Part shown: in pieces, positions 188 through 24,109 of the stretch
Layout: the number at the start of each line of letters is the position of its first letter
Position numbering within the stretch: position 1 is the first letter of the stretch
DNA from: Eubacterium sp.
Lineage (GTDB): Bacteria > Bacillota > Clostridia > Lachnospirales > Lachnospiraceae
DNA length: 55,742 nucleotides
Direction: 5' to 3'
NCBI GenBank assembly: GCA_017420535.1
Contig: JAFOIV010000123.1
Coordinates: forward strand, 1-55,742
The notes under the pieces: generated by a model
The model's input: only the letters and a program-made list of their open reading frames with translations
Told to the model about the DNA's origin: nothing
Database searches by the model: none
Position numbers and translations under genes: made by a program

Positions 188-1726
188 TTAGTTTTTCTTC
201 TTTTCCTTTAGCTCTCCCATATACTTCTTTCCATCTTTTATAAAACTGATAGCGATAAGTACAAGAACTAAGGCAAGTGGGAAGGCTGCTATTATACTTA
301 CAGCCTGAATATTAGTCATTGAGCTCTCTGAGAAAAGAAGAGCTATTGGAAGAAGGATAAGAAGAAGGCACCACATAAGTTCAACAAGCTTATTAGGATT
401 CTTTCCTTCATCAAGTTTTCTATAACTATAGCATGATGCAATGAAAGCAATTGAGTCAAATGATGTAGCATAGAAAGCGATCATTGTACAAATAAGCCAT
501 ACAAGTACTACAGGAACAATAGGAAGGGTCTTCATCATTGCGATGATAATGTCATATACGTTATCGCCATTGTTATACATTGCAATAAAATCAGCTGCAC
601 CTGACATATGTTTACCCATTGAGTAATTACCAAGAATGATAAAACTTACAAGAGTTGAACCAACACCAAATACATATCCACCTAGTACAGTCTGTCTTAC
701 TGTTCTACCCTTTGAAATCTGTCCGATAAAGAAAGGAGCAGCAACACACCATACCATCCAGTATGCCCAGTAATAGATTGTCCAGTTCTGTGGAAAACTA
801 TTCTTTCTAAGCGGATCAGAATAAGTTGATAATTCAAAGAAATTACCAAATAATTTACCAATTGATTCTACGCCAGTTTCAATAATATACTTTGTCTGTC
901 CTCCAAAGAAAAGAACGAATAATAATAATCCGAAGAATAAATACATACAGGCATTTGCAAGATGTGAGATACCCTTGATTCCATGAAGAAGTGAATATGT
1001 ATAAATGATACATGTTACAAAAAGTATCACTATTGTAATAACAGTTCTGTTAAGCTGAATTCCAGTAAGAGCTTCAATAGCCGCTGCCATAAGTGGAGTT
1101 GCAACTGAGAAAGTTGTAGCTGTTCCTGCAATAAGTGCAAATACTGCAAGAAGGTCTATGATTCTACCAAGGATTCCATCAGTATGCTTTCCAAGAATCG
1201 GACGACAAGCTTCTGAAAACTTCTGTCTGTCTCTCTTTCTTACATGAAGCATAAAACCAAATGCTACAGCAAGTACAAGGTAAAATGACCATGGGATAAA
1301 ACTCCAGTGAAAAAGAGGGAAAACTCCAGCCCATTCCTGAACAGAACCCATTTCAGCAATATGTGGCTCAGCAGCATACATTACCCATTCTGAAAATGAA
1401 TAAAAGAGAATATCCGCTGCAAGTCCACAAGTAAACATCATAGAACCCCATTTAAAGAAACCATATTTTGGCTTCTCATCTGGAGCACCCAGTACTATAT
1501 CTCCATATTTACTAAATGAGATAAATATTGAAACAAGGAAAAGTCCAAGGCCTATTATTAAATAATAAGATCCAAGAGTATCACCAAAGAAAAATCTAAC
1601 CTGGCTTACAACCGCGTTGGATTTATCCGGGAAAATAAAGAATAATAATGCTAAACCTACGATGATAGCCAATGGAACCAATGTGATTATCCAGTCCACC
1701 TGGCTTTTTTTAATTCTTTCAATCAT
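188..1726 (-). CDS. BCCT-family transporter, probable choline importer
   Basis: A 512-residue polytopic membrane protein with about 12 hydrophobic segments. The family hallmark is seen as YYWAYWMVWC (about 318-327) followed by ISKGRT (337-342); BCCT proteins carry quaternary amines such as choline, betaine or carnitine. The glycine-rich stretch expected in TM3 is replaced by CGLAADILFYSFSEW (about 100-114), so the protein is a divergent branch and coupling ion and substrate cannot be read directly. The start has an AAAGGAG site, and the gene begins 7 nt after licC, as the last gene of that operon. From the context I infer that it supplies choline to LicCA, the job done by the unrelated permease LicB in Haemophilus and pneumococcus. 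Confidence 0.85.
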   Translation of the reverse strand: MIERIKKSQVDWIITLVPLAIIVGLALLFFIFPDKSNAVVSQVRFFFGDTLGSYYLIIGLGLFLVSIFISFSKYGDIVLGAPDEKPKYGFFKWGSMMFTCGLAADILFYSFSEWVMYAAEPHIAEMGSVQEWAGVFPLFHWSFIPWSFYLVLAVAFGFMLHVRKRDRQKFSEACRPILGKHTDGILGRIIDLLAVFALIAGTATTFSVATPLMAAAIEALTGIQLNRTVITIVILFVTCIIYTYSLLHGIKGISHLANACMYLFFGLLLFVLFFGGQTKYIIETGVESIGKLFGNFFELSTYSDPLRKNSFPQNWTIYYWAYWMVWCVAAPFFIGQISKGRTVRQTVLGGYVFGVGSTLVSFIILGNYSMGKHMSGAADFIAMYNNGDNVYDIIIAMMKTLPIVPVVLVWLICTMIAFYATSFDSIAFIASCYSYRKLDEGKNPNKLVELMWCLLLILLPIALLFSESSMTNIQAVSIIAAFPLALVLVLIAISFIKDGKKYMGELKEKKKN

Positions 1727-1733
1727 TTTAAAG

Positions 1734-2612
1734 TTACTCCTTTTCTGTGATCTTAATTATTTTTTTGTCGGCATATTTATATGAATACTTAATACCTTTT
1801 AAATTAAAAGTAAAACCTGAGGCTTCGTTATTCTTATCATTAAAGGATTTGAAGCCATCCATGTCACACTCAGATACATTAAGTCTCGCTGCAATACTTT
1901 TTAATATTGAAGAACGAGTATTATCTACATATGAATCATCAAATTCTCTTAATTCATCTATAGTATCAAATTCAAAGATTATATCATCAGGATATTTCTT
2001 CATCTTCATTTTTAATCTATCAATATTTTCAATGAAGATGTCTTCCCAATATTTATCTGCTGTTTCCGGAAGATCATAAACTTCATCCAATATCTTGGTA
2101 AAAACATTGCTGAAGTTCTCATCCCAGAATACATGCCCCAACATATACCAGGATGAAATACCACCAATAGAAACCTTTGAGATAAACCCATCCTCATCTG
2201 TTGTGATACACCATTCATTTGTTCTTCCATCTGAATAAAGCGCTGAATAGAATGCACATTCTTCCTCACTATTAAATGGATTATCATTAAAATAATTATC
2301 AGCACAACAGATATATGTATTCTTTAATATATCTTCTATTGCTTTAATACTTGAATTATTATTTCTTGTTTTGTAATAAGGATTATGTCTTAATTTAATA
2401 TCACATTTTTCCTCTAAATACTGGAAAAGCTCTGCCTTATACCCTGTTACAACATAAACCTCTTTTATACCAGCTTCATGTAACTGCCTTATCTGTCTCT
2501 CAATAAGGACCTCTCCTTTTACCTCAGCTAAAGCCTTAGGTTTTTCATAGGATAAGGGTGCAAATCTGCTGGCTGTACCAGCCGCAAGTATTACGGCATT
2601 ATCGACTTTCAT
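1734..2612 (-). CDS. licC: CTP:phosphocholine cytidylyltransferase (LicC) with a kinase-lobe remnant
   Basis: The nucleotidyltransferase domain spans about 4-226. It shows the nucleotide-binding loop (ILAAGTASRFAPL with KPKAL, residues 8-28), the likely metal-binding ADNY (104-107), NEW (132-134), FWD (162-164) and YWED (188-191); from memory these match pneumococcal LicC closely. The expected reaction is CTP plus phosphocholine to CDP-choline, in the cytoplasm. LicC is usually about 230 residues. The extra C-terminal part (about 230-292) aligns with the linker and first kinase lobe of the upstream LicCA protein and then stops, so this gene looks like a LicCA paralogue that lost its kinase domain. 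The gene starts 3 nt after the licCA stop, which suggests translational coupling. Confidence 0.85.
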   Translation of the reverse strand: MKVDNAVILAAGTASRFAPLSYEKPKALAEVKGEVLIERQIRQLHEAGIKEVYVVTGYKAELFQYLEEKCDIKLRHNPYYKTRNNNSSIKAIEDILKNTYICCADNYFNDNPFNSEEECAFYSALYSDGRTNEWCITTDEDGFISKVSIGGISSWYMLGHVFWDENFSNVFTKILDEVYDLPETADKYWEDIFIENIDRLKMKMKKYPDDIIFEFDTIDELREFDDSYVDNTRSSILKSIAARLNVSECDMDGFKSFNDKNNEASGFTFNLKGIKYSYKYADKKIIKITEKE

Positions 2613-2615
2613 GCC

Positions 2616-4364
2616 TTACATCCTCTCTTTCGCATATATATAATAGTCTTTGGCATATCGATATTGTCTAAGGCTGTATTCACCAAATTCAATTCCAAGA
2701 TGAGCCTTATACTCGCACCAGTTGGACCATAAAAGTCCCGCAATGGCTATATAACAATAAATCTTTGTCCTTACTTCTTCAGGGCATTTATCTTCATAGT
2801 AAATGTCTATGATAAAGTCAACCATGCTCTTTTCGTACATACTGTAAATGGCAAACATTGCAATATCCAGATCAGGATCCTGCATACCTGCATATTCCCA
2901 ATCGGTAAGCTGAAGCTTCTCTTCTCCATTTTCCTTATAGAAAAGGAAATTATCGCAATTTGCATCTATATGTGTAAGGCATCTCTTTTTATCAAGGCCA
3001 TCTACATAAGAAATCAGCTCTAATACATGTTCCTTGGTCTTAAGATAATCAGGATATGAAGAAGGCTCACCATTCCATAATGATTCATAGAAATTAATCT
3101 CTTTAAGAAGATTGAATTCATGATCCACTTTAAGATTCATCTTGTGAAGCTTCTTAAGTAAAGTAAAGCATCTCTGTATATCTTCAACTTTCCTGTCATT
3201 ACAGGTTCTGACACCCTCGAGGAATTTAGTAACCTTATATCCATTTTCAGGATTAATATAAACAGGATCATCAGAGAATCCTTTGCCTGCAATGGCACGA
3301 TAAACTTCTGCTTCTTCTTTTCTATTTATAAGCTTATCAGTTCCTTCTCCAGGAATTCTCATGATATATTTGTTACCGTCATAACTAAAAAGGAATGATC
3401 TATTAGTCATACCCTTCTTAAGTACTTCAATATTTTTAATATCTTTGACATCACATTTAAATACCTCAGCAAGCACAAGAATTGCTTCTGACTGAAGCTG
3501 TTTAGACTTATCATCTAACTGTCTAAGCTGTTCAAAGGTATTGATCTCATACACTTTTTCCTTTGGGATACATCTTGCTTTGGTGAACATTCTTCCATTT
3601 TCATCATATAAAGCCTCTTCCCAGAAATCATTATCATGATAAGCTGATTTTGAAAGTTCTTTCATTCTTTTCTTTAAAATCATAGAATCATTCTTGCTGA
3701 TAAATGAAAGTCCTATCATTGAATTTCCCTGAACATTTTTAGCAATTTTCACAAGCTCATAGCTTCTTGCAAGTTTAACATCGCTACAGCTGTCTTTTTT
3801 ATCAGTGATCATATACCAGGAATAAGCTTCATTTTTCCCAAATGGATTCTCTTCAAACCATACATCTGAAGGAACAATATAACTATTCCCTATATATTTT
3901 TCAGCTTTCATAAGAGAACAGAGGTTATTCTTTAAGACGTAATCTGGATTTACTATCAGTTCAACATTGTATTTATCAATAAGATAATCAAACTGTTCTT
4001 TCATAAATCCAACTACTACATATATTTTTTTAATTCCCGCTTCATGAAGCTGATTTATAAGTCGTTCAATGAGGATCTCTCCCTTTACCTTAAGAAAAGC
4101 TTTAGGACATTCATGATTGATGGGAACCATACGCATACCAAAGCCAGCCGCAAGGATTATTGCATTCTTTGGCTTAAAAGCATCAATATATTCCCTTCCT
4201 TTATCAGTGATCTTCATCATGTGAATATATTTATCTTCTTCTAATATTCTTAAAGATTTATTCACCAGACCTAAGGCATGTCCTACATGGGATGCAATCT
4301 CTCTTTGAGTTGAATAATCTTTTTCATATAATGCTTTAAGTATATCTGCTTGCTGTATATTCAT
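2616..4364 (-). CDS. licCA: Winged-helix/cytidylyltransferase/choline kinase fusion (LicCA type)
   Basis: Three parts are visible in 582 residues. Residues 1-63 form a MarR-like winged helix (STQREIASHVGHALGLVNKSL, then a wing near 46-56). Residues 66 to about 285 are a LicC-type nucleotidyltransferase (IILAAGFGMR, PKAF). Residues about 295-582 are a choline/ethanolamine kinase with the Brenner motif HIDANCDNFLF (465-475) and metal-binding DWEY (488-491). The kinase should phosphorylate choline. In the transferase domain, acidic residues kept in the neighbouring licC are changed (NEW to YSW, FWD to FIS), so it may be impaired or have another substrate. The gene has a good promoter at 4389-4417 and an AAGGAGG site, and is first in the operon. 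The helix domain could bind the palindrome over its own start site; this is inference. Confidence 0.85.
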   Translation of the reverse strand: MNIQQADILKALYEKDYSTQREIASHVGHALGLVNKSLRILEEDKYIHMMKITDKGREYIDAFKPKNAIILAAGFGMRMVPINHECPKAFLKVKGEILIERLINQLHEAGIKKIYVVVGFMKEQFDYLIDKYNVELIVNPDYVLKNNLCSLMKAEKYIGNSYIVPSDVWFEENPFGKNEAYSWYMITDKKDSCSDVKLARSYELVKIAKNVQGNSMIGLSFISKNDSMILKKRMKELSKSAYHDNDFWEEALYDENGRMFTKARCIPKEKVYEINTFEQLRQLDDKSKQLQSEAILVLAEVFKCDVKDIKNIEVLKKGMTNRSFLFSYDGNKYIMRIPGEGTDKLINRKEEAEVYRAIAGKGFSDDPVYINPENGYKVTKFLEGVRTCNDRKVEDIQRCFTLLKKLHKMNLKVDHEFNLLKEINFYESLWNGEPSSYPDYLKTKEHVLELISYVDGLDKKRCLTHIDANCDNFLFYKENGEEKLQLTDWEYAGMQDPDLDIAMFAIYSMYEKSMVDFIIDIYYEDKCPEEVRTKIYCYIAIAGLLWSNWCEYKAHLGIEFGEYSLRQYRYAKDYYIYAKERM

Positions 4365-4376
4365 CGGAACCTCCTT

Positions 4377-4390
4377 TTGTTCATGAACAA
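4377..4390. promoter_or_regulatory. 14-bp perfect palindrome over the licCA start site (candidate operator)
   Basis: TTGTTCATGAACAA touches the -10 box (4389-4394) and covers the expected +1 near 4382, just ahead of the ribosome binding site. This is a repressor-like position. The core TGTTCATGAACA recurs exactly at 9905-9916, ahead of the second repeat protein. Confidence 0.6.
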
Positions 4391-4417
4391 TATAGCACTT
4401 TTTTATACTGAACTCAA
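4389..4417 (-). promoter_or_regulatory. Sigma-A-type promoter of the licCA operon
   Basis: On the minus strand a -35 box TTGAGT (4412-4417) and a -10 box TATATT (4389-4394) are separated by exactly 17 bp, about 25-50 bp ahead of licCA. Confidence 0.75.
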
Positions 4418-4465
4418 GTAGATTTTATCCTTCTAAACAAATATTTTTAGAAAAAACTTCCATGC

Positions 4466-4517
4466 AAAAAAGCCGACCTCTGAATATTAGATTTATTTCT
4501 AACATCCAGAGATCGGC
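4466..4517 (-). terminator. Intrinsic terminator after the first choline-binding protein gene
   Basis: GCCGATCTCTG (minus strand, 4507-4517) pairs with CAGAGGTCGGC (4472-4482) with one G-U pair, followed by TTTTTT (4466-4471). It isolates the gene at 4550-6793 from licCA. Confidence 0.85.
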
Positions 4518-4549
4518 ATGAATACTTAATACTTATTCAGTTTAATTAC

Positions 4550-6793
4550 TTAAAACTTTATAATTGTGCATTTACCATCTGCTCCTGCAAACCATCCTGC
4601 ACTATCAGGAACATACTCATTTACAAGCATTCCTCCCTCTTCAAAATAGTACCATGATCCATTATACTTGAGCCATCCATTATAGAGATTTCCATTTGAA
4701 TCAGCATAGCCCCATACATTATTATATTTAAACCAGCCTGTTACTAATGAACCATCTCTATTAAAGAAATAATCTTTATCATTGATTTCCATATGATAAT
4801 AGTTTTCATCTGTATAAGATGAAGGCACAGTAACAAAAACACCAAATTTATAATAGTACCACTTTCCATTCTCTTTTACCCATTTGTCTTTAGGGGCAAT
4901 ACCAGTCTTTGAATCAGTTAATACTCTTACTGTTACATCTCCATATTTAGGAGTTAAAGTTGATTTTCCTTTTATGTATTTTCCATCATCGCCTATAACA
5001 TAAGCACCAACAGCATCATCTGAAGAAGAAGAGCCATTTTCATAGTTTATTCTTCCTTTTTCATCCTTAAACAGATATATAATAGAATCTGTAACCATTT
5101 TACCTTCTTTAAAATAATAGTCTCCCATCCATCCCTCATGGGCTTTACCATTATTATCAAAGTAATACCAAACAGTCTCACCATATTCATTATCTTTATA
5201 CCAGCCTTTTACCATCTTTCCATCAGACTTAAAGGCATATTTATTACCATCTATTGTAGTAATAGTATTACTCTTCATTTCTGAATCATTAAAGTAATAA
5301 TAATCACTTCCTGATTTGATCCATCCTGTATAATTCTGGCCTTCTTTATAATAACGCCAGCTGCTTCCATATTTTGTCCAGCCGTTAGCAACCTTTCCCT
5401 CATCATCAAAGTAATATGTTTTGTCATATGATGATGATGAATAAGTGCGCTTATTATCTTTAAAATAATAAGTTCTACCAGCTAAAGTATGTCCATCTTC
5501 AAAGTAATAAGAAGCTCCAGCTGATTTTAACCAGCCATCTTTCTGGATCTGTCCAGTAGCATCTGATAAATACCATCCGTTTGATCCATCAGCATCAACA
5601 CAGTGATACCATCCCTTATTCATTGAACCATCAGGTCTGAAATAGTATTTCTTACCATCGATTGTTTTTACAGAATCAGTAACAAGTCTTCCACCATCAA
5701 GATAATACCATTTACCATTTGACTTGAACCATCCTTTATCCTTAACAACACCCTTCTTATCAACAATAGTGATATCACCATCTGATGTAACATAAGGACC
5801 ACTTGTTAAATGACCATCCTTATCAAAACAATAATATTTATCTTTATCATAAATAATTGTAGATGTTGCCATTTCAGGACAGAAATAATACCATTTACCA
5901 TTTATCTTCTTCCATCCCTGAACAAGAGACCATTTATCATCATTAAAATAGAACCACTTTGCGTCCTCGCTGGAAGTCTGCACCTTCTTCCAGCCTTTGG
6001 CAGTTACAACATGACCATACTGATCAGCAACATATAGTTTTGAATCAACCTCAAAAACTCCCCTTTGCATAACAGGGTCAAGGTAATAATTAACTCCATT
6101 CTGTTTATGCCAGCCGGTTTTTAATTTACCTGTATTATCTAATACATATACCCAGTCTTCTACAGTGGTACTCCAAGATATATCATGTTCATACTTATAC
6201 CATCCAACAGTAGTTGCAATTTTTCCATCAGAATCAGCTACAAAACAATTTGAACCAACCATAAAAACGCCTGTGGCAACTCTTCCCTTATAAGAATCCC
6301 CTGGTTTGAAATAATATTTCTTTCCATTTATTGTCTTAAAACCTGTTGCAAGTTTTCCTGTAGAATCTGTTACATAATATAAATATCCATATTTATCTTC
6401 AACAAATCCAACCTTTGTTACTTTGTTTCCTTTTGAATCAGCCATATAATAGATATTATTTTCCTTATATGGAAGATTTGCTGTATGAGTTGTTGCAAGT
6501 GAAGCATCAATTGTAACTTCCTCTTCCTTTTCCTCAGTTACTACTACAGGATCTTTTTTTACATCTTCTGTTGTTTCAGTAACTTCTTTCTCTGCAACTT
6601 CACCTTCTGTAACCACTTCCTCTGTAACCTCATCTTCTTCGAGCTGTAAAGAAGCATCTGTTCCAGTTGCCACAGTTGATGAATCACTGATTTCATCCGC
6701 TCTAACAGTACTTATCTTTCCAAAATTCATACCTGATACAGTAAATGCACCCGAGAGAAGAAATGCTGCTGTAAGCAAACTCTTTTTTCTCAT
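4550..6793 (-). CDS. Secreted choline-binding-repeat protein (no catalytic domain)
   Basis: A Sec signal peptide (MRKKSLLTAAFLLSGAF, likely cut near VRADE at 30-34) is followed by an acidic Glu/Thr/Val linker (about 40-95). The rest of the 747 residues is more than twenty cell-wall-binding repeats of the CW_binding_1 type, with units such as GWKKINGKWYYF and GWFKSNGKWYYL. In pneumococcal proteins such repeats form aromatic cages that hold phosphocholine on teichoic acid. No enzyme domain is visible, so an adhesin, scaffold or surface-coat role is most likely. Similar repeats in clostridial toxins bind carbohydrate instead, so choline as ligand is inferred from the lic genes alongside. The start has a GGAGG site; the gene is a single-gene unit with its own terminator. 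Confidence 0.85.
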   Translation of the reverse strand: MRKKSLLTAAFLLSGAFTVSGMNFGKISTVRADEISDSSTVATGTDASLQLEEDEVTEEVVTEGEVAEKEVTETTEDVKKDPVVVTEEKEEEVTIDASLATTHTANLPYKENNIYYMADSKGNKVTKVGFVEDKYGYLYYVTDSTGKLATGFKTINGKKYYFKPGDSYKGRVATGVFMVGSNCFVADSDGKIATTVGWYKYEHDISWSTTVEDWVYVLDNTGKLKTGWHKQNGVNYYLDPVMQRGVFEVDSKLYVADQYGHVVTAKGWKKVQTSSEDAKWFYFNDDKWSLVQGWKKINGKWYYFCPEMATSTIIYDKDKYYCFDKDGHLTSGPYVTSDGDITIVDKKGVVKDKGWFKSNGKWYYLDGGRLVTDSVKTIDGKKYYFRPDGSMNKGWYHCVDADGSNGWYLSDATGQIQKDGWLKSAGASYYFEDGHTLAGRTYYFKDNKRTYSSSSYDKTYYFDDEGKVANGWTKYGSSWRYYKEGQNYTGWIKSGSDYYYFNDSEMKSNTITTIDGNKYAFKSDGKMVKGWYKDNEYGETVWYYFDNNGKAHEGWMGDYYFKEGKMVTDSIIYLFKDEKGRINYENGSSSSDDAVGAYVIGDDGKYIKGKSTLTPKYGDVTVRVLTDSKTGIAPKDKWVKENGKWYYYKFGVFVTVPSSYTDENYYHMEINDKDYFFNRDGSLVTGWFKYNNVWGYADSNGNLYNGWLKYNGSWYYFEEGGMLVNEYVPDSAGWFAGADGKCTIIKF

Positions 6794-6860
6794 TAACCTT
6801 ACCTCCGTTAATTAATATTTACTCCAATTATTTTAATATAATACTCATAAAAAACAAGTA

Positions 6861-6876
6861 TGAAAACAACCATTTT
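6861..6876 (-). promoter_or_regulatory. 16-nt upstream motif shared by the two repeat-protein genes (copy 1)
   Basis: The minus strand reads AAAATGGTTGTTTTCA about 68 nt ahead of the start codon. It matches copy 2 (9871-9886) at 14 of 16 positions. Its TTTTCA end sits 17 bp from a TATTAT, so it may overlap a weak -35 box. Confidence 0.45.
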
Positions 6877-6929
6877 TTCTAAAATTATGATACCAAAAGT
6901 ATAGTCTCCAAGAGTTTTAAATCCCATAC

Positions 6930-6968
6930 AAAAAAGGGAGCATACCAAAATAAATTGATACACTCCCC
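6930..6968 (-). terminator. Intrinsic terminator after the second repeat-protein gene
   Basis: On the minus strand a stem of about 12 bp with several G-U pairs (GGGAGTGTATCAA against TTGGTATGCTCCC) is followed by TTTTTT, just past the stop codon at 6992. Confidence 0.8.
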
Positions 6969-6991
6969 AAAAACTATATTCCAGCTATTTT

Positions 6992-9770
6992 TTATTTCTT
7001 AAATGGATTCTTTTCAGAAACCTTACCATCAACACCTGCATAAAGTGCCTTTGTTCCAGAAATAAATGAATCAGTGATCAGATATCCATGATCAAAGAAA
7101 TACTTATTTTCTCCTTCTTCAAGCATACCATCATAAACTGTTGCGTCTTTATTAAGGTATCCTTTAACATCACCAACTTTTACCCAGCCAGTTGCAAGCT
7201 TTCCGGCATTTTGCAAAACAAGGATTATTTCCTGATTAGTTTTTTCATTATAATCCCGCTCAATTATCTGTCCTTTTCTAGCTCCATAGGTTATTCCTGA
7301 TGCAAATAAATAGTAAAGACCTCCAGATGCGTCAGTATAAAAGCCTTTATCTTTTATTAAATAACCAGTCTTTTCATCTGTAAATATTACATAATCCAGA
7401 TTTTCTAGATCATAATATCCAGATTTAATAGACGCAAAATAATAAAAATTATAAAATGGTACTGTATATTTACCCTTAACAGCTTTACCCTTATTATCTA
7501 TAAACATGTAATTTACCTTAGATTCTTCATCTAATGTTTCTGGGAAGTACCATACAGTGTGATATTTATTTTCTTTCTTTTCTTCATCATAAGTAACTTC
7601 AAGGAAGCGATCTCTTATCATATAGCCGTTTTCTACATAGTAGTCACCAACCCATCCTGTATATGCTATACCATCATCACCAGCATATAACCAGTTACCA
7701 TTGCCGATAGATTTCCATCCTTTAGTTACAGGTTTCTTTACAGAAAGGCCTGCTTTTGAGAACCAGTAAATATGTGCTGTTTCACCATCTTTATCAGGAA
7801 TTACATAATATCCATTCTTATATACTCCGTTATTGCGATAATTATCATATCCATAACCAGATAAATAATAGTATCCTTCAGCGACATAATAGAATTTTCC
7901 ACCAGGACCTGTTAACCAGCCTCTTTGATCTTCTCTATCCTTAAGAACAGTCATGCCATATTCATTTGTGGTAAATTCAGTATATTTGTTCCAATTCCAA
8001 TCCCATTTACCGTCTTTATCAACATAGAAATTATCTGGCGTATAAGCATCTGCAAGCATGATTCCATTATCAAGATAATACCATTCATTTTTCCACTTAA
8101 GCCATCCAGTCATGCCTTTTCCATCTTTATCCGCATAGAACCATACTTTATTTCCATAAAGATTAAACTGATACCATTTGTTAACAATAAGCTTTCCAGT
8201 ACTGTCAAATCCGTAATTATACATCTTGTCTTCTTCAATACCATATTTTACTTTTTCAAGTACTTCTTCCTCTTCAATCTTATCTTTGTCAGAAAGCCAT
8301 TCGTATCTATTGCTTACCACATATGAATTTTCAATAAAATACCAGTCATCACCAACCTGAACCCAGCCATAATATTCTTCTCCATTTTCAAAATATCTGA
8401 GACGATCAGAATCTGAATCCATATAAATATCTGATTCTTTTACAAGGCCATTAGCTATGATAGCATTCTTTCTAATTGTAAGCTCATAAGAATCATCATA
8501 ATAGCTTGACATATAGAATCCACCGCCACCATAGTCAATTAAAGAATCATCTTCGTTTGAGAATCTATATGTTCCGCCCGAAAGCGCTTCACCATGGATG
8601 AAATAATAATTAAATGCTCCGACCTTTTTCCATCCATCTTCAGGTAAACTTCCGTCTTCATATGAATATAACCATTTACCATTACTTCTCTTGTACCATC
8701 CATAATTTATGGTACCATCAGGTCTTACATATACTTCTTTATCTTCAATTTCAACAAAAGTATCTACAAGCATTATTCCATCATCAAATACATAATCTTT
8801 TCCATCCTGTTTAACAACTTTAATAGCCTCTTCAATATCTTTAAAGCCGTCACTGTCTGGATAAATTACGCCCCAAGGATGATCCTCACCAACAACTAAT
8901 GGATCATGGCTCACCTGTCCATTTTCATCGAAATAATATTTGTTTCCATCATTATCAATCATCCATTCATCCTGGCACATTTCAGGAATAAAATAGTATT
9001 TCTTTCCATCAATTTCCTGCCAACCAGTATAAAGCGATCCGTCATTATACTTATAGAAGGTTCTCTCATCTTCAAATTCTCTTTCCTCGTCTTCTCCAGT
9101 TTCTGGATTATACCAGTAATCCATTCCCTTATATATGATTACCTTGCACCATCCTGGTTCAAGACTTATCTTACCTTCATAATCTGCTACGAACTGATCA
9201 TATCTACGGGTTATACGATTATATCCATTGAAGACGCCTCTAACCATATCGCCTTCCCAATCATTAAAGTAATATAATTCATCTTCAAGCTCAAGCCATC
9301 CTGTTGCAAGTTGTCCATCCTCTGACATAACGTAGCAGGTATAATCTTCAGGTTTTCCTTCTACATTAATATGAAAACCTATCTGTGTAACAGGATTTCC
9401 TTCTGGATCTACAAGATAAAGAATATCCCTTCCTGTTTCCGGATCAAATTCCCTAATGATAGATTTTACCATAATCAATAGGTTCTTGCTGATTCAGATA
9501 TGCAGGAACAGTTTCTTCATTATTCTGTTCTCCGACTGATGAACCCTTAGTATCTGTATCACCTTCAGATGCCACAACATTTCCCTTATTTACGTTATCA
9601 ATTTCATCGTCGCCCTGGTTCTAGTTATTCATCTCAATGTATGAATATCCGTCACCTGATGAATTTTCGTCATCCGCTCGTACCACAGCTATTTTACCTT
9701 TGTAAAATCCTGTGAAGGCTAAACAAGCAGATAAAGCTAGTCCAATAAGATAAACTTTCTTTCTCCTCAT
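6992..9770 (-). pseudogene. Disrupted secreted choline-binding-repeat protein
   Basis: The full gene should start at the ATG at 9768-9770, which has a strong AGGAGGG site. That frame gives a signal peptide (MRRKKVYLIGLALSACLAF) and an acidic linker like those of the intact neighbour. It meets an in-frame TAG at 9621-9623, where the context AAC-TAG-AAC-CAG suggests a CAG-to-TAG change. The linker frame then continues readably to about 9485. The repeat domain (6992 to about 9478, 828 residues of CW-binding repeats) is in another frame, and 292 nt between the two start points is not a multiple of three, so there is also a frameshift near 9460-9485. The downstream frame alone starts only at a weak TTG or ATG and has no export signal. 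Sequencing error could explain one defect, less easily both. The promoter region and terminator are intact. Confidence 0.8.
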
Positions 9771-9870
9771 AAAATGTCCCTCCTAAAATACTATTTAATC
9801 AATAAACTACCGGTACAAAACACCTAATAAAATTATACTAAAAAATAGTTTTATATATGTTAAAAAGCTG

Positions 9871-9886
9871 TGAAAACGACCGTTTT
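9871..9886 (-). promoter_or_regulatory. 16-nt upstream motif shared by the two repeat-protein genes (copy 2)
   Basis: The minus strand reads AAAACGGTCGTTTTCA, with inverted halves AAAACG and CGTTTT around GT. It lies about 100 nt ahead of the start codon at 9770. Copy 1 is at 6861-6876. Confidence 0.45.
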
Positions 9887-9904
9887 ATGCCTTATTTCAC
9901 CAAA

Positions 9905-9916
9905 TGTTCATGAACA
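9905..9916. promoter_or_regulatory. TGTTCATGAACA palindrome, second copy of the licCA operator-like site
   Basis: This 12-bp perfect palindrome is identical to the core of the site on the licCA promoter. It lies just past the terminator of the L,D-transpeptidase gene and about 135 nt ahead of the second repeat-protein gene, so it probably belongs to that gene's control region. Confidence 0.5.
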
Positions 9917-9923
9917 GGCCATT

Positions 9924-9965
9924 AAAAAAATACCCTTCTTACTGTTATGTTCAGTAAAAAGGGTA
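9924..9965 (-). terminator. Intrinsic terminator of the polysaccharide operon
   Basis: On the minus strand TACCCTTTTTACTG (9952-9965) pairs with CAGTAAGAAGGGTA (9931-9944), followed by TTTTTTT (9924-9930). It ends the long rmlB-to-transpeptidase operon. Confidence 0.85.
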
Positions 9966-9988
9966 CATATCATATTGCGAAAGTTTTA

Positions 9989-11278
9989 TTAATGATATAC
10001 AACTACCTTTGTTCCATAAGGTATATTATCATAAATCCATTTTGCTTCTGATAATGATAATCTTACACAGCCAAGAGAAAGTGGTTTTCCAAGTCTTCCA
10101 TCTATAATGGTATCAGGTGATGATTCCTGTGCATATAATACTGAATGGAAAAGATAATCTCCACAAAACTGAGTATAATACCAGAGACGTGCATTATCAT
10201 GGTCAAAGTAAACACCTTTAGCTTTAGTTGTAAAGGTTCCTTCAATGGTTGGAGTCTTATCACTGCCATCAGAACACTCAAGATATTTGATATTAGTCCA
10301 TACGTCATTTGACTTCCTATAAATACCAACTCTATGAGTAGAACGATTTACAAGTATAAGATATGATGTATCACTGTCATAGCCTTTAGCTTTATTATGC
10401 ATATTATTCGCACTATACTCTTCCCAGGTATTATCCTTACGGCCATTTTTATCCACATGATAATTACCAATCCACGTATTTCTTGCCATCATTCCATTAC
10501 TCTGAAGATAATAATCACCGCACCATGTGTCATGCATCATTCTTCCAGATTGATAGAAAGAATACCAGTCACTACCCAGTTTAAGCCATCCTGTAACCAT
10601 TTTCCCAGATGGATAGAAATAGTACCAGTCTGCTCCGATTTTTTCCCATTCTCTATCCATTATTCCAGAGTTTCTGAAATGATACCAATTTTTTCCTATA
10701 TATTTCCAGCCGGTCTGCATCCTACCGTTGGAATCAAGGTAAAACCATTCATTATTTATTTTCTGCCAGCCAGTTACCATTGTGCCGCCAGCTCTGAAGT
10801 AATACCAGTTATTTTTTATCTTCTGCCAGCCTGTCTGCATCTTTCCTGATTCAGAAAGATAAAAATAATGATTACTTGATTCTATCCATCCTGTAGCCAT
10901 TCTTCCAGATGGATAATGATAATACCAATTATCTTTTACCTTATTCCATCCTACTGCCATAATTCCTTTCTCATTAAAGAAATACCAGTAGTCATCAATT
11001 AATTTCCAACCAGTTACATTTTCACCTTTATCATCATGATAGATCCAGGTAGCATCGCTTTGTTTTATCCAACCAGTAATTATTTCTTCAACTTCTTCAT
11101 TACCGGTTTCACCCTCATCATTACCTTCTGTGTCTTCGCCATCATCTTTTTTTTCTGCATCACTGCTTGTGGCAACCGTATCAACCTTCTCCCCATCCGA
11201 AGCTTCAACCTTGCTAAAAGATAATAGAGATACTGTTATTAACCCACACAATAAAATAAGTTTTTTGCCAACCCTCAT
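9989..11278 (-). CDS. Secreted L,D-transpeptidase (YkuD) with choline-binding repeats
   Basis: A signal peptide (about 1-26) is followed by an acidic linker (27-65), then about nine full 20-residue repeats and two short ones (67 to about 290). The repeats are canonical choline-binding units such as GWQKIKNNWYYFRAGGTMVT. The C-terminal YkuD domain (about 305-429) has the conserved His near 378 and the catalytic Cys near 404 in SLGCVRL, where most members have SHGC. YkuD enzymes cut the peptidoglycan stem peptide and form 3-3 cross-links or attach proteins. The gene starts 13 nt after licD and is the last of the polysaccharide operon, with a GGAGG site. I infer an enzyme held on the phosphocholine polymer made by the same operon. 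Confidence 0.88.
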   Translation of the reverse strand: MRVGKKLILLCGLITVSLLSFSKVEASDGEKVDTVATSSDAEKKDDGEDTEGNDEGETGNEEVEEIITGWIKQSDATWIYHDDKGENVTGWKLIDDYWYFFNEKGIMAVGWNKVKDNWYYHYPSGRMATGWIESSNHYFYLSESGKMQTGWQKIKNNWYYFRAGGTMVTGWQKINNEWFYLDSNGRMQTGWKYIGKNWYHFRNSGIMDREWEKIGADWYYFYPSGKMVTGWLKLGSDWYSFYQSGRMMHDTWCGDYYLQSNGMMARNTWIGNYHVDKNGRKDNTWEEYSANNMHNKAKGYDSDTSYLILVNRSTHRVGIYRKSNDVWTNIKYLECSDGSDKTPTIEGTFTTKAKGVYFDHDNARLWYYTQFCGDYLFHSVLYAQESSPDTIIDGRLGKPLSLGCVRLSLSEAKWIYDNIPYGTKVVVYH

Positions 11279-11291
11279 AGCACCTCCATAT

Positions 11292-12107
11292 TTATTTATA
11301 AAATTCTATAGTATCAACACTATGATGATTTCTTTCTTCCTTAGGCGGAAGGTCATTATAGTTGGAACCATAATCAACTAAAAGCATTCCTTCTGGATTG
11401 TGAGGACATTTAAACTGATATCCTTCAAATTCAATCCTGCCCAGAGGAAAAATGTCATCATATTTATATTTTAAATCCCATTCATTCTCATATCCAAGAT
11501 AAAGATATTCCTTAGATGAAAATAAACTAAAAAATTTAAATATTGGAATAAAGAAATATTTAGATATTCCATATATCATTGAAGAAATAATCGGATGTTT
11601 TCCTAAAGCATGCCATTCATTAATAACCTGAAGTCTCTTTATAAATGCTCTTGGCTTCTTCTTAACCCCAAATCCCCAAGGAAAAAGATCAACCTGAACA
11701 CCTTTATACTTACGCTGATTATGAATAAATTCATCTTTAACATAGCAGGAATTAAGGTCTCTTAATACATTATAATGCCTTACAAATCCTTTATCAATGG
11801 AATGATCCTGTACAACATAATCATATTTTCCACTATTGACTATTTTTCTAAACTTCTTAAGTCCTTCAGGTGACATTACAACATCTGTATCATCATCCCA
11901 TGGAATAAAACCACCGTGTCTTACAGCTCCTAAGAGAGTTCCATATCCAATAAAATAGTCAATATCATTTTCAGTACAGACTTTATCAAGGAAAACAAGT
12001 AGTTCAAGCATACGATCCTGAGCTTTTCTAAGATTACTTCCCTCATAATTATAATTAGATTTAAGCTCTTCTTCAGTCTCTCCAGTGTTGTAAACCTTCT
12101 TATCCAT
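11292..12107 (-). CDS. licD: LicD-family phosphocholine transferase
   Basis: The LicD signature is clear: YFIGYG (51-56) and GTLLGAVRHGGFIPWDDDTD (56-75), where the acidic cluster is the expected metal site. LicD proteins move phosphocholine from CDP-choline to a sugar hydroxyl of a teichoic acid or glycan repeat unit on the inner face of the membrane. At 271 residues the length is normal. The start codon shares one base with the flippase stop (TAATG), so the two are translationally coupled. With licCA, licC and the BCCT transporter nearby, phosphocholine is the best substrate; some LicD relatives move other phospho-groups such as ribitol phosphate. Confidence 0.88.
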   Translation of the reverse strand: MDKKVYNTGETEEELKSNYNYEGSNLRKAQDRMLELLVFLDKVCTENDIDYFIGYGTLLGAVRHGGFIPWDDDTDVVMSPEGLKKFRKIVNSGKYDYVVQDHSIDKGFVRHYNVLRDLNSCYVKDEFIHNQRKYKGVQVDLFPWGFGVKKKPRAFIKRLQVINEWHALGKHPIISSMIYGISKYFFIPIFKFFSLFSSKEYLYLGYENEWDLKYKYDDIFPLGRIEFEGYQFKCPHNPEGMLLVDYGSNYNDLPPKEERNHHSVDTIEFYK

Positions 12108-13546
12108 TATCTCTTCCTCTTTTTTAAGAATTCTTTTATATCTTTATTATAAAAGATAGCAAACACTACTACATAAGCTATGCCACTCAGTACTATATCT
12201 GATACAAAATTTAATATACGATTTTTTATCAGGTTATTTAAAGCAAAGCATATAACAAATATCAAACCACTGCCAACCAATGCTGTAATAAGAGATTTCG
12301 AAACATTACCTATCTTAATCTTTCTTGCATAATAAATACCCATACATGCAAGAGAGGTTTCAGCAAGAAGTGTGGTAAATGCTGCTGCATTTTCTGCATA
12401 TAATGGAATAAGTATAAAATTTAGTCCAATATTAACAGCCGCACTGATAAGAGTTGCAATAGTAACCTTCTTTTCCATTTTAAAAGGTATCATAACTATA
12501 TTTATATAAAAATTAGCAAGTAAAGCCGGAGCCAGTGAAAATGCCAGTATTCCAAGAGCTGTTGTTGCCCCTTCAAACTCGGCTCCTGAGAAAATCATAA
12601 TCAGATTTTCTCTTACCATAAAAAGCCCTACAGAACATGGAACAGTAAGAAGGATAGTAAAATTAAGCACCTTACTTAATTTTGAATTAGCCTTCTCCTT
12701 ATCATTTACAAGATCATTTGATATTCTTGGAATGATAACTACAAATGCAGCATTTATCATTTCTTTAATAAGCTGATAAAATCTAGTTGCCGCTCCATAC
12801 AGCCCATTATGACTATCATCATACGGAAAGAATAACTTTATTATTGATATATCCGAATTAATGTAAATAAATGTCGCTATTGAACAGGCAAAGAAATACA
12901 TTATCGGCTTGATATGCTTCTTCATATCTTTTGATATGAGGAATTTAGGCTTTATACCAAGATTCTTTCTAATATGAAAATAATTAAAAAAATTGGCTAT
13001 GATAACACCTGTCACACTGACAATGGAATAACCAAGTATATCATCTCTGTTTCTTACAAGTACAAAAAGAAGTCCTAAAGCTACAGTCTGAGCTATTATA
13101 TATCTGATGGTTATAAAGAAATAATCTTCAAAAGCACTATTGATCCAATCTGTACCAATCGTTGTAAAAAGAACTGAAACTGAAAGCACCAGAATAAATG
13201 GTGCATAGTCATGAAAATGATCAACAAATATAAGTAAAGCAAAAAGGATCAAAAATGACATAGCTGTTGTAATTATATTAATGGAATATAGTTCATTTAT
13301 CAGCTTTGATAATTTATCTTTATCATCTCTTACTCTTGCACATTCTCTAACTGCATATCTAAGGATACCTGCAGCTGCAAGATATGATATATAATTCACC
13401 ACATTCCAGCTGAAGGTATATTTACCATAATTATTTACACCTAATACTCTGAAAGCATAAGGAAATGTTATCATCGGAAAAATGATAGCACATATCTGTT
13501 TAATAATATTTAATAACGCATTACGTTTTACTGATCTAGTCTTCAT
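12107..13546 (-). CDS. Wzx-type repeat-unit flippase
   Basis: This is a 479-residue protein with about 12-14 hydrophobic segments and the N-terminal pattern of the polysaccharide_synt/MATE-like family (NALLNIIKQICAIIFPMITF, then PYAFRVLGVNNYGKYTF). Such proteins turn lipid-linked repeat units to the outer face of the membrane. It sits between the polymerase and licD genes of the operon, so its cargo should be the repeat unit built by the glycosyltransferases upstream. AGGA site ahead of the start; 23 nt after the polymerase gene. Confidence 0.88.
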   Translation of the reverse strand: MKTRSVKRNALLNIIKQICAIIFPMITFPYAFRVLGVNNYGKYTFSWNVVNYISYLAAAGILRYAVRECARVRDDKDKLSKLINELYSINIITTAMSFLILFALLIFVDHFHDYAPFILVLSVSVLFTTIGTDWINSAFEDYFFITIRYIIAQTVALGLLFVLVRNRDDILGYSIVSVTGVIIANFFNYFHIRKNLGIKPKFLISKDMKKHIKPIMYFFACSIATFIYINSDISIIKLFFPYDDSHNGLYGAATRFYQLIKEMINAAFVVIIPRISNDLVNDKEKANSKLSKVLNFTILLTVPCSVGLFMVRENLIMIFSGAEFEGATTALGILAFSLAPALLANFYINIVMIPFKMEKKVTIATLISAAVNIGLNFILIPLYAENAAAFTTLLAETSLACMGIYYARKIKIGNVSKSLITALVGSGLIFVICFALNNLIKNRILNFVSDIVLSGIAYVVVFAIFYNKDIKEFLKKRKR

Positions 13547-13569
13547 ATTCCTGTCCTTGATAATAATTT

Positions 13570-14826
13570 TTAATTGCTGATAGTTTCAGGCGATTTCTTA
13601 TTAATCTCAAGAAGTACCATACTGAAAAGCAAAGCCAGAAGTCTTTGTGGATCAAGATATGACTGAGTGATCAAAGCCACAGCTGCCATAGTGGTGATCC
13701 CTATGCTTAAGGCTCTCCTCTCCTTATCAGTGTTAATAGTTAACTGTATGATTTTCAGCAAAAATAATATATACCATATTATTGAAAAAATTCCAAGTTT
13801 CGCAAATGTTCCCACAAGTCCTATATCATCAAAGTGATAATTCTCATCAGGACCATGTATTACCTTATATAAAGTATCTCCTTCATCAGGATTTGCAATA
13901 CCAAATCCAAAGAAAAGAGTTGACCCCTTCATTTCAGACATATAATAATCAATTGCCCCGGTTCTTGCATATGAAGATCCTGTATTCTCAGATATATCAG
14001 CATTTACAGATTTATAAATTTTGTATCCAACTGCTGCTCCCATTAAAAGTCCACATAAAAGAAGGAAAAATGCTCCAAACCTGAGTCTTTCCTTATTGAC
14101 AACCAAAAACTCAATTAATATTACTAAAACAACTGTAGCAATATAAAATCTTGAGCCATCCACAAGAAGGATTGCTAAAAGTCCCAGTAATGTATATATG
14201 ATCTCGCACATACATTTTTTGAAATGCTTCTTAAATATAAGATAAGCTGTAAGTATTACAAATATCCTGTTAAATCCTTCAAATACATTATAGATTCTAA
14301 ATCCCAGCTCAGGATGATTGAAATAATAATCCGGAAGCATAACTCCAAGCTTCATAAAAACAGTATGACTTCTAAGATACAAAAATCTTTGAGCCAGGAA
14401 TAAAAAAACAAGTAAACTCCATACTATTTCAGCCGCCCTAAGAAAGAATCTGAAATTTCTCTTACTCTTAAATATCTCTCTTAAGATAAAATAATAAATC
14501 AGATTTATAAAAGGAAATAACGGCCATACAACCTGAGTTATCTTATAATCAAATTTTAAAAGCGAATGAACAGATACTCCGGCAAGAATGACATATAAAC
14601 CTAAAATATATATACCAAATTCTCCAGCAGCAAATTTATGTCTTAATACATAATAAATAAATAAGCAAATACCAAAGAGAGACAGTAACATCTTATTAGT
14701 TCCGTCTCCTGAAAAATATTTAGGCAGATTTATCATATAAAAAAATCTGACATCAAAAATAAGAAATATTATAATTATCAAGCTGTTGATATTTATCTTC
14801 TTTAAACCATTCATAATTTCTACCAT
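13570..14826 (-). CDS. Wzy-like polysaccharide polymerase
   Basis: About ten or eleven hydrophobic segments and a large loop near 275-335 (SSYARTGAIDYYMSEMKGS, FGFGIANPDEG, HFDDIGLVGTFAKLG) fit O-antigen/capsule polymerases, which share topology more than sequence. It should join the flipped repeat units on the outer face. I place the start at the ATG that overlaps the GT2 stop as TAATG; a TTG three codons earlier is possible. About 418 residues. A WaaL-type ligase cannot be excluded from sequence alone, but the place next to the flippase favours a polymerase. Confidence 0.75.
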   Translation of the reverse strand: MVEIMNGLKKININSLIIIIFLIFDVRFFYMINLPKYFSGDGTNKMLLSLFGICLFIYYVLRHKFAAGEFGIYILGLYVILAGVSVHSLLKFDYKITQVVWPLFPFINLIYYFILREIFKSKRNFRFFLRAAEIVWSLLVFLFLAQRFLYLRSHTVFMKLGVMLPDYYFNHPELGFRIYNVFEGFNRIFVILTAYLIFKKHFKKCMCEIIYTLLGLLAILLVDGSRFYIATVVLVILIEFLVVNKERLRFGAFFLLLCGLLMGAAVGYKIYKSVNADISENTGSSYARTGAIDYYMSEMKGSTLFFGFGIANPDEGDTLYKVIHGPDENYHFDDIGLVGTFAKLGIFSIIWYILFLLKIIQLTINTDKERRALSIGITTMAAVALITQSYLDPQRLLALLFSMVLLEINKKSPETISN

Positions 14827-15737
14827 TAAGCCCAAGGATTATTATCATAGCAATCTTTATATATTTCATAAGCATGAATAAGTCTTTTATTCTTAGTAAG
14901 TAATGCTTCTCTTGAAGGAACCGACTTAAATCCACTAGAAATACCATGCCAATGAATAACCTTTATATCACTTGAATAAACCGTCTCATACTTAAGAGTG
15001 TTACATTTTAAGGAAAGAAGAAGTTCTTCTGCATAAAATCCTGTATCAGGTTCAAAACACACTTCTTCCTTTTCAATATATTTTTTTGTAAATATCAGGC
15101 AGGATCCCTGAAGTACAGTTCCATGCAATTCCTTCTCTTTATATAAAGTGATGATGTTTTCACCTTTTCTTTTATTTCTGATCTCTAATATCTTAGAAGG
15201 AATAAGATTTCTATATTTTCGCATTTTCTCACTATGCTGATAAAGCATAACTGCAGCGTCAATATTTTCCATCTCTTTCTTTCGTCCCTCTATCAGGCGA
15301 TCAACCTTAGAACCTGGAAGGATGTCACTATACATTGGGGACTGATGCTTCTTTTCTCTTGGATTATAAATATCTGGCCCTATAAGAAAAGCACCTGTTC
15401 TGTTATAGATATCATGTAATCTATCTATAAAATCTTTTTGTCTTATCTCAATATCATTATTAAGACAAATGATAAACTGTGGATCATAGGCTTTTGCCAT
15501 CTGATAAGCCTTATTCATCCCCTTAGAAAAGCCATCATTATTCTCATTATGAAATAAGATGACATTTTCATATTTCTTATATCTTTCTTCTAACTGTTTA
15601 AAGCTGTCATTATTAGAATTGTTATCAAATATAAGGATTTTAGAATCCATTATATTATTTAATCCTAAAAGAGAATCCACGCACATACTCGTGGCCTTGA
15701 AAGAATTATAATGTAATACATTAAAGAATATATCCAT
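14826..15737 (-). CDS. GT2 glycosyltransferase (rhamnosyltransferase-like)
   Basis: A 303-residue GT-A fold enzyme. It begins with the GT2 nucleotide-binding pattern (FFNVLHYNS, LIFDNNSNNDS) and has the NNDGFSKGMNKAY stretch seen in rhamnosyltransferase-type GT2 proteins, followed by the donor-site ICLNNDIEI around 89-97. No membrane segment is evident. It lies between the Stealth and polymerase genes. The donor may be dTDP-rhamnose, as the operon makes it, but acceptor and linkage cannot be read. AGGAG site ahead of the start. Confidence 0.82.
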   Translation of the reverse strand: MDIFFNVLHYNSFKATSMCVDSLLGLNNIMDSKILIFDNNSNNDSFKQLEERYKKYENVILFHNENNDGFSKGMNKAYQMAKAYDPQFIICLNNDIEIRQKDFIDRLHDIYNRTGAFLIGPDIYNPREKKHQSPMYSDILPGSKVDRLIEGRKKEMENIDAAVMLYQHSEKMRKYRNLIPSKILEIRNKRKGENIITLYKEKELHGTVLQGSCLIFTKKYIEKEEVCFEPDTGFYAEELLLSLKCNTLKYETVYSSDIKVIHWHGISSGFKSVPSREALLTKNKRLIHAYEIYKDCYDNNPWA

Positions 15738-15752
15738 CTATATACTCTCCTC

Positions 15753-17877: not shown

Positions 17878-17887
17878 AAATGCTCCA

Positions 17888-19204: not shown

Positions 19205-19256
19205 AATATTTCACCTTGTCTTATTCAGATTTTGAAAGAAAAAAACCTGAAGATTA

Positions 19257-20462: not shown

Positions 20463-20524
20463 ATAGAATTCCCCTTATATTTTAATTTTTTAATTATACT
20501 GAAAATCCTCTATTATTTCAATCT

Positions 20525-21133: not shown

Positions 21134-21156
21134 TTTTATTTCTCCTATCATAACAA

Positions 21157-21191
21157 ACTACTGTATCTAACAACTTGTTAAATACAGTAGT
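21157..21191 (-). other. Strong stem-loop between rmlA and rmlC
   Basis: A perfect 10-bp outer stem (ACTACTGTAT / ATACAGTAGT) and an inner TAACAA/TTGTTA stem lie in the only sizeable gap inside the rml genes. No T run follows on the minus strand, so it is more likely an RNA-processing or stability element than a terminator. Confidence 0.5.
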
Positions 21192-21199
21192 AATAATAA

Positions 21200-22084: not shown

Positions 22085-22085
22085 A

Positions 22086-23009: not shown

Positions 23010-23032
23010 CGACTGCCTCCGGATAATATTTC

Positions 23033-24067: not shown

Positions 24068-24074
24068 AAATAAA

Positions 24075-24109
24075 ACCTCCAAATAGATTATTTTTTTCTA
24101 TCTGGAGGT
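24075..24109 (-). promoter_or_regulatory. 12-bp hairpin covering the rmlB ribosome binding site
   Basis: On the minus strand ACCTCCAGATAG (24098-24109) pairs with CTATTTGGAGGT (24075-24086) over an 11-nt loop, followed by TTTTATTT. The 3' arm contains the GGAGG of rmlB. The 5' arm starts directly after the -10 box, so a promoter-born transcript would contain only about half of it, while read-through RNA from upstream would form the full stem. It could also terminate the upstream operon. Confidence 0.6.

Follow-up and report, generated by a model that had tools for sequence, protein, structure and literature searches.

A winged-helix choline kinase as the predicted repressor of its own phosphocholine locus in a Lachnospiraceae genome

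What does a DNA-binding fold do at the front of an enzyme that is expected to phosphorylate choline? This question is raised by LicCA, a fusion protein encoded next to genes for choline uptake and phosphocholine metabolism on contig JAFOIV010000123.1 of Eubacterium sp. (Lachnospiraceae; assembly GCA_017420535.1), a stretch of 55,742 nucleotides that was analyzed at its full length and is referred to here as the window. The host genome is a draft of 134 contigs (2.67 Mb, 98% complete). Among the matches listed, its closest named relatives by LicCA identity are the Lachnospiraceae metagenome-assembled genomes (MAGs) UBA3772 (93%) and RUG13451 (92%); we take the label of the latter to stand for the rumen, and the host is presumably a rumen bacterium as well. 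The answer that we regard as probable from the comparisons described below is that the locus encodes a phosphocholine pathway in which LicCA serves as a choline kinase-repressor, similar in design to NadR, and would act through a dyad of inverted half-sites.

LicCA (2616..4364, minus strand; matches to HTH_24, NTP_transf_3 and Choline_kinase) is composed of a winged helix-turn-helix (wHTH) domain (residues 1 to 62, approximately), a LicC-like domain with an altered choline site (about 66 to 290), and a choline kinase domain (about 296 to 575). Its closest solved relatives by sequence are LicA (4r77) and LicC (1jyk), and the same two structures are the nearest solved folds found by Foldseek with its AlphaFold2 model (mean pLDDT 90.6; target TM-scores of 0.84 and 0.87, respectively). 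Across both types of LicCA distinguished below, residues Q20, R21 and G32 of the wHTH are invariant and N35 is nearly so; all of them lie in the turn and the recognition helix, where the conserved motifs QR and SLGxVN are found. According to passages of PMC12421817, NadR of Salmonella and E. coli consists of a helix-turn-helix domain, a central nucleotidyltransferase and a C-terminal kinase, and represses genes for synthesis and uptake (pnuC). LicCA shares this three-part order within one chain. Unlike NadR, it serves another pathway, combines a LicC-like with a choline-kinase-like domain and adjoins a separate LicC; it is not a member of the NadR family, whose model is not among the NCBIfam matches listed for the window proteins (25 of 31 families). 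It was the NadR-like order of the domains that led to the search for an operator.

The comparison rests on 110 LicCA loci, 30 of them from genomes of the family and 80 named ones (the best 80 of 375). LicCA is full-length in 109 loci and interrupted by a stop codon in L071; three pairs of loci (L044/L118, L046/L144 and L081/L083) stem from the same genome or species. The 110 aligned homologues fall into 97 of a cassette type, the window protein included, and 13 that we refer to as group 2 (L058-L070). In the cassette type, licC follows directly behind licCA in 73 of 96 loci, and a BCCT gene lies at most 3 kb behind licCA in 79, but not in 11, while six loci are too short to tell; this part of the gene set recurs in other genomes, and the first-pass annotation of this DNA had proposed to look for the whole set in relatives. 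In group 2, licCA is found among genes for choline-binding proteins; a separate LicC is not labelled beside it in 12 of the 13 loci, and a BCCT gene is labelled in only two of them (L059 and L060). The LicCA design looks as if it were common to related gut bacteria.

An unbiased motif search in 93 non-redundant upstream regions of the cassette type returned TGTTCAYGAAAA with a score of 638.7, where five shuffled sets reached 56.6 to 70.6, and this motif was estimated to be present in 97% of the 93 regions. By inspection, its half-sites form an inverted pair in which TGTTCA and TGAAC are 24 or 25 bases apart; this dyad replaced a simple palindrome, which had been considered as the form of the upstream element. 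The pattern xGTTCA-N24/25-TGAA is present near the start of licCA in 78 of 92 cassette loci (the 96 minus four duplicates or near-duplicates), and its second half falls onto the start codon in 61. Cassette-type licCA genes begin with ATGAAC in 50 instances and with GTGAAC in nine, so that GTG starts keep the half-site too. Residue 2 of LicCA is Asn in 83 of the 97 cassette-type proteins, as a half-site within the start codon would explain. Group 2 has the dyad at the licCA promoter in 12 of 13 loci, and in 11 of these 12 a -10-like hexamer (TAnnnT) is completed by its first half. When the interval from -250 to +60 around the called starts is considered, the dyad occurs at 46 of 91 cassette-type and 10 of 13 group-2 licCA genes. 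For the other genes, the corresponding counts are 10 of 847 and 1 of 105, and several of these hits share the upstream region of licCA. Twenty of 22 whole genomes carry the dyad at the licCA promoter or start codon.

The licCA gene of the window begins with ATGAAT, and its dyad (GTTCA-N25-TGAAC; 4379..4413, minus strand) is the upstream one, covering the -35 and -10 regions of a sigma-70-like promoter (TTGAGT-17-TATATT; 4389..4417, minus strand). Both halves of this predicted operator overlap the promoter, whose 9 of 12 matches are by themselves no evidence, since shuffles of the region contain on average 1.1 such sites. The perfect palindrome TGTTCATGAACA at the same promoter (4378..4389) is one of only two exact copies in the genome. 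A search of the window against Rfam gave zero RNA-family matches, and therefore no catalogued riboswitch accounts for the licCA leader. The upstream element is less perfect in Lactobacillus (L079), Streptococcus (L101), Trichococcus (L115), a Coriobacteriales MAG (L102) and a Spirochaetales MAG (L141). The cassette itself was encountered in Lactobacillus delbrueckii (L079), Streptococcus porci (L101), Trichococcus ilyis (L115) and the Spirochaetales MAG (L141), a distribution that points to transfer from lineage to lineage or, in the MAGs, to contamination.

The dyad also recurs at transporter genes away from licCA. A Pfam search of the 13 group-2 genomes yielded 12 BCCT genes over the cut-off (a weak match of 117 residues in G088 was dropped) and none in G185. 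At ten of these 12 genes, a perfect TGTTCA-N24/25-TGAACA precedes the BCCT domain by 32 to 108 bases, and for each of the ten none of 200 mononucleotide shuffles contained an equally good site. At nine of the ten, the hexamer TAnnnT is completed by the first half; a dyad half at a -10-like hexamer is in the position that a repressor would be expected to take. This test was partly blind: six of the ten genes (G016, G046, G033, G059, G088 and G072) had already been met in dyad searches, and among six BCCT genes that had not been met before, four possess the dyad (G019, G172, G194 and G111). Five dyads of the search in 22 genomes proved to precede BCCT genes. The BCCT gene of G131, which is without the dyad, directly follows licCA, and no dyad was found at the BCCT gene of G178.

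In the host genome, the sequence GTTCRYGAAC occurs at three places only, namely at the licCA promoter, before CBP2 (one of the choline-binding-repeat genes described below) and, on contig 17, upstream of a Ugp-like ABC transporter, and the strict dyad is found at licCA, at the Ugp-like transporter and once within a coding region. The transporter dyad (G000:C17:18036-18070; L177) is situated just behind genes with choline-binding repeats, one of which also has a family 5 cellulase domain. It recurs in both near relatives, and two dyads are found at a UgpA-like permease of the distant genome G046. The best solved relatives of the Ugp-like binding protein are UspB and UgpB of M. tuberculosis, from which glycerophosphocholine can be guessed as the solute; the NCBIfam Ugp models scored below their cut-offs. 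The second exact copy of TGTTCATGAACA, upstream of CBP2 (9905..9916), is kept before the CBP2 homologue of UBA3772 (G200), and the exact site was not found in RUG13451.

Two broader regulons were considered and dropped. A search of 15 genomes with TGTTCRYGAAMA gave sites outside licCA and CBP2 that looked coding or unrelated in the 25 loci that were read, and an operator at choline-binding-protein genes in general did not hold, as the motif was found at 1 of 40 such genes of the cassette type and at none of 32 in group 2. The dyad was found at 1 of the 40 and 2 of the 32, and all three of these genes are divergent from licCA and share its upstream region. One type of small lipoprotein, recognized by eye, lies across the dyad in group-2 genomes, either divergent from BCCT or beside licCA (L286:1311-1937, L288:2148-2690, L289:2409-2978, L290:2214-2753 and L068:11986-12582). 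What we take for a cassette variant that uses a different carrier is seen in G098 (L292:766-5316), where a LicD-like gene, a paralogue of LicCA that shares its wHTH arrangement, a dyad and the gene of a sodium:solute symporter stand in a row.

The middle domain sets the two types of LicCA apart. We assume that W136 and D218 of pneumococcal LicC are positions of the choline site. Of 96 cassette-type loci, 95 have Ser and one has Gly at the W136 position of LicCA, with no Trp nearby, while the choline-site Trp is kept in 13/13 group-2 LicCA proteins and 74/74 separate LicCs (these counts do not come from the alignment of 110 proteins, in which the group-2 Trp falls into an inserted column). At the D218 position, 94 of the 97 cassette-type proteins have Asn and the other three Asp; group 2 has Glu there in 12 proteins and Asp in one, and all 74 separate LicCs have Asp. 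Pro occupies the D105 position in all 97 cassette-type proteins; group 2 has Ser (11), Pro (1) or Ala (1), and the separate LicCs have Asp (52), Ser (17) or Cys (5). Since this position is not Asp in group 2 and varies among the separate LicCs, it is not decisive. The choline-site residues W134 and D216 of separate LicC are kept in 74 of 74 proteins, including that of the window.

Genomes without an intact pair of neighboring licCA and licC genes were checked in 12 instances (11 of the 23 loci that lack licC behind an intact licCA, plus G180 with its broken LicCA), and all 12 contain a LicC-like protein elsewhere, in which the choline site has Trp or Tyr and the acidic site Asp or Glu. In G208 and G209, the extra LicC lies just past BCCT, and in G202 and G206 it belongs to a second open frame, which is about 590 to 615 residues long. 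The fused LicC-like domain has thus diverged in genomes in which a different protein can take over its task, and the middle domain of cassette-type LicCA is probably without transferase activity. The two types amount to a natural experiment, with the fused domain altered where a separate LicC is found and the choline-site Trp kept in group 2.

In its kinase domain (PF01633, 59.2 bits), LicCA can be aligned with pneumococcal LicA. Nine active-site residues of LicA (T29, D176, N181, D194, E196, Y197, W251, W254 and Y268; roles according to passages of PMC4364537) are invariant in 110/110 homologues, which makes choline the likeliest substrate. Other listed LicA residues differ: E213 is replaced by Tyr and N32 by Ser in all 110 homologues, the K45 position (R336 of the window protein) is Arg in all 110, V178 corresponds to Val (94), Asn (15) or Ile (1), and Q31 to Arg (97), Lys (10), Gln (2) or His (1). 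The joint phosphocholine function that the first-pass annotation had proposed remains the best reading of the gene set, favored by the nine residues and qualified by the others. Its parts (BCCT, LicC, fused LicCA, LicD and three choline-binding proteins) were all recovered on the minus strand at their places by profile and structure-relative matches. The fusion in LicCA was correctly seen; its description as a plain kinase plus cytidylyltransferase does not hold, given the missing choline-site Trp of the middle domain and the presence of a separate LicC. The N-terminal wHTH had gone unnamed.

The separate LicC (1734..2612, minus strand; NTP_transf_3), a CTP:phosphocholine cytidylyltransferase, has pneumococcal LicC (1jyk) as its best solved relative (6.5e-35). 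About 55 of its C-terminal residues align with the start (N-lobe) of the choline kinase domain and are taken as the remnant of a fused ancestor; in other cassettes, LicC is about 240 or about 290 residues long. The BCCT-family carrier (188..1726, minus strand) is over both cut-offs (PF02028, 417.4 bits; TIGR00842, 411.1 versus 407.55). Its family had been read as choline uptake; the family assignment stands, but the substrate does not follow from it, as DddT comes first among the solved relatives, and carnitine, betaine and choline carriers are among the others. We consider the protein a probable choline importer. With few bases between them, licCA, licC and the BCCT gene, which comes last, would form a single operon by their spacing.

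LicD (11292..12107, minus strand; PF04991, 102.7 bits) is the only LicD of the host genome, and its score with the cholinephosphotransferase model NF045866 is only 84.7 against a cut-off of 225. Upstream of it lies a polysaccharide locus (12107..24082, minus strand) with a Wzx-like flippase, a putative Wzy-like polymerase, glycosyltransferases, a Stealth phosphotransferase and dTDP-rhamnose genes, and the rhamnose-containing polysaccharide of this locus is the likely acceptor glycan for phosphocholine. A Wzy-type polymer had been claimed; the assignment of Wzy itself is weak (Wzy_C, 23 bits versus a cut-off of 31.7). The Stealth-family protein (15753-16754) may point to phosphodiester links in the glycan.

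Taken together, the following mechanism can be proposed. BCCT would import choline, the kinase domain of LicCA would phosphorylate it, and the separate LicC would make CDP-choline, as judged from families and residues. LicD, at the end of the polysaccharide locus, would transfer phosphocholine to the glycan, on which proteins with choline-binding repeats could dock. The wHTH of LicCA is predicted to bind, as a dimer, TGTTCA half-sites that are 24 to 25 bases apart, and to repress its own operon and, in other genomes, unlinked BCCT genes and the Ugp-like ABC transporter; the sign of control is taken as repression because the dyad overlaps the promoter. Repression would last until choline or a pathway product changes LicCA, whereupon the kinase would commit choline and LicC and LicD would complete the decoration. 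In the cassette type, the middle domain probably serves to sense a ligand, either a nucleotide or one from the pathway, and not to catalyze. With less assurance, yet still inclining to this side, we suggest that LicCA founds a family of choline kinase-repressors across the Firmicutes and beyond, with a NadR-like design reached independently, a lapsed LicC domain that would now sense the state of the CDP-choline pathway, and a dyad that would control the uptake of choline and possibly of glycerophosphocholine, one half-site of it lying in the start codon of licCA itself.

Several observations weigh against LicCA as a repressor acting through the dyad. The isolated wHTH reaches only 21.2 with the MarR_EPS model (TIGR04176), whose cut-off is 88. 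The strict dyad is not rare, with 102 places in 21 of 22 genomes (gap 23-25), and its 141 strand hits compare with 66 for the pattern read backwards, so that about half of the places are at chance level; palindrome sites away from licCA in cassette genomes were likewise mostly chance-like in the 25 loci read. G185 and G098 are without the strict dyad at licCA. The upstream regions of the cassette type and group 2 are kin, so that the dyad counts are not independent, and the BCCT test spans LicCA-carrying genomes only and has no negative control. Passages on the LicC site in PMC6697681 name an aromatic box, D105, D192, Arg129 and Glu216; the roles of W136 and D218 are assumed here. The dyad could also be read by a protein other than LicCA.

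This last point is the core of an explanation that we consider unlikely, in which the pathway is an ordinary one, LicCA is bifunctional, its wHTH is structural, and the upstream motif is the target of a regulator encoded elsewhere. Group-2 LicCA, with its choline-site Trp in 13/13 proteins, could indeed be bifunctional, and free choline repressors of the MarR type exist (GbsR, in passages of PMC6207618); however, the conserved positions of the wHTH (QR, SLGxVN) fall into the turn and the recognition helix, and the element stands before licCA in Lachnospiraceae and other lineages, so that an unlinked regulator would need to follow the gene. Hardly probable, in our judgment, is control of translation by a hairpin that the inverted repeat would form in the RNA, at the ribosome-binding site and the start codon of licCA. 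The second half of the cassette-type dyad does lie on the start codon at 61 of 78 loci, and of four licCA leaders that were folded, two exceed their shuffles in stability (z about -3), those of the window (z -1.24) and of L152 (z -1.11) not. Against the hairpin, a -10-like hexamer is completed by the first half at 20 of 22 group-2 sites, so that this half would mostly lie upstream of the transcript, and the window dyad spans the -35 to -10 region. The hairpin suits group 2 poorly and is more conceivable in the cassette type.

The destination of CDP-choline may be questioned as well. Treponema denticola makes phosphatidylcholine by a CDP-choline route (passages of PMC7368946), and CDP-choline might feed this lipid rather than a glycan here; we think this quite unlikely, as the sole LicD of the genome sits in the glycan locus and many choline-binding repeats co-occur. 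More room, though still doubtful, is left for the altered middle domain of cassette-type LicCA being an active transferase with another substrate, which would be compatible with the switch. The domain is highly conserved and keeps the positions of LAAG-G-R, the Lys, D107 and E216 (96/97), whereas the D218 position is Asn in 94/97 proteins and the choline-site Trp is absent from 96/96 loci. The choline kinase-repressor remains the reading that we prefer.

How much of this is new? The kinase, cytidylyltransferase, LicD and proteins with choline-binding repeats resemble the pneumococcal lic pathway (LicA, LicC, LicD); different from it are the BCCT carrier, the fused wHTH-LicCA, a Wzx/Wzy-like polysaccharide locus as likely acceptor and a probable regulator of its own. 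T. denticola has a LicCA that is a fusion protein. A LicC-like domain within a fusion protein is also known from PntC-AEPT of T. denticola, with the difference that PntC acts on aminoethylphosphonate and is fused to a transaminase (passages of PMC6697681). GbsR and OpuAR are choline-responsive winged-helix repressors of choline uptake genes of the MarR type (passages of PMC6207618) but, unlike LicCA, they are free regulators without enzyme domains and are linked to osmoprotection. Phosphocholine on a clostridial polysaccharide is already reported, for a review describes an exopolysaccharide of Clostridium immunis that carries it (PMC12355684); the likeness lies in phosphocholine on the polysaccharide of a gut Clostridium, which is here predicted from genes. 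A choline kinase with its own DNA-binding domain and operator was not found in the literature, a weak negative since it covers open-licence papers only.

We therefore propose as new a wHTH-bearing choline kinase with a predicted operator, while phosphocholine decoration and free choline repressors are already known. If true, LicCA would, after NadR, be the second protein to unite helix-turn-helix, nucleotidyltransferase and kinase in one chain, and a single protein that phosphorylates choline and switches its uptake would provide a defined operator, a named set of residues and a predicted regulon. We know of no control of surface phosphocholine in clostridia. In known cases, phosphocholine on bacterial surfaces is recognized by proteins and antibodies of the host; the effects on host binding and immune recognition that had been envisioned for this organism were overstated and are unsupported by the analysis.

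The genes between 188 and 12107 follow one another on the minus strand, in the direction of transcription, as licD, CBP3, CBP2, CBP1, a hairpin, the promoter-like site, licCA, licC and BCCT. The hairpin (4472..4517, minus strand), between CBP1 and the licCA promoter, is terminator-like, and shuffles give 0.1. All three CBP genes contain Choline_bind repeats over the Pfam cut-off; by pattern, copies of the aromatic-site motif number five in CBP3, two in CBP1 and two in CBP2, and this repeat type is shared with glucan-binding and toxin proteins. CBP1 (4550..6793, minus strand; PF19127, 129.4 bits) is secreted and has degenerate repeats, and CBP3 (9989..11278, minus strand; PF19127, 136.9 bits) also carries a YkuD L,D-transpeptidase domain (PF03734, 55 bits). 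CBP2 (6992..9770, minus strand) is broken: it starts with a signal peptide at 9770, and between there and 9478 the frame is interrupted by a stop codon and shifts. Its repeats were rightly recognized, but the gene earlier called at 6992-9478 is a remainder and not the whole. The breakage could be an error of the draft assembly; longer open copies of CBP2 are present in L077 (4609-7404) and L078 (4481-7405).

Choline-binding repeats are found in 32 matched stretches of the host genome, on contigs 17, 29, 70, 86, 115 and 118. In a sample of 200 family genomes, nearly one per genus, at least 10 repeat matches were present in 27 of 31 genomes with strong LicCA (a match of at least 340 bits) versus 29 of 169 others (Fisher p 6e-14, uncorrected for kinship), which bears out the pairing of choline-binding proteins with phosphocholine genes that had been noticed at this locus. 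The four strong-LicCA genomes below this number are G098, G192, G047 and G180. LicD was rejected as a specific marker, as it occurs in 129 of the 200 genomes (28/31 with strong LicCA versus 101/169). Beyond the polysaccharide locus, at 24150-25325, the window encodes a methyltransferase domain fused to a MerR regulator.

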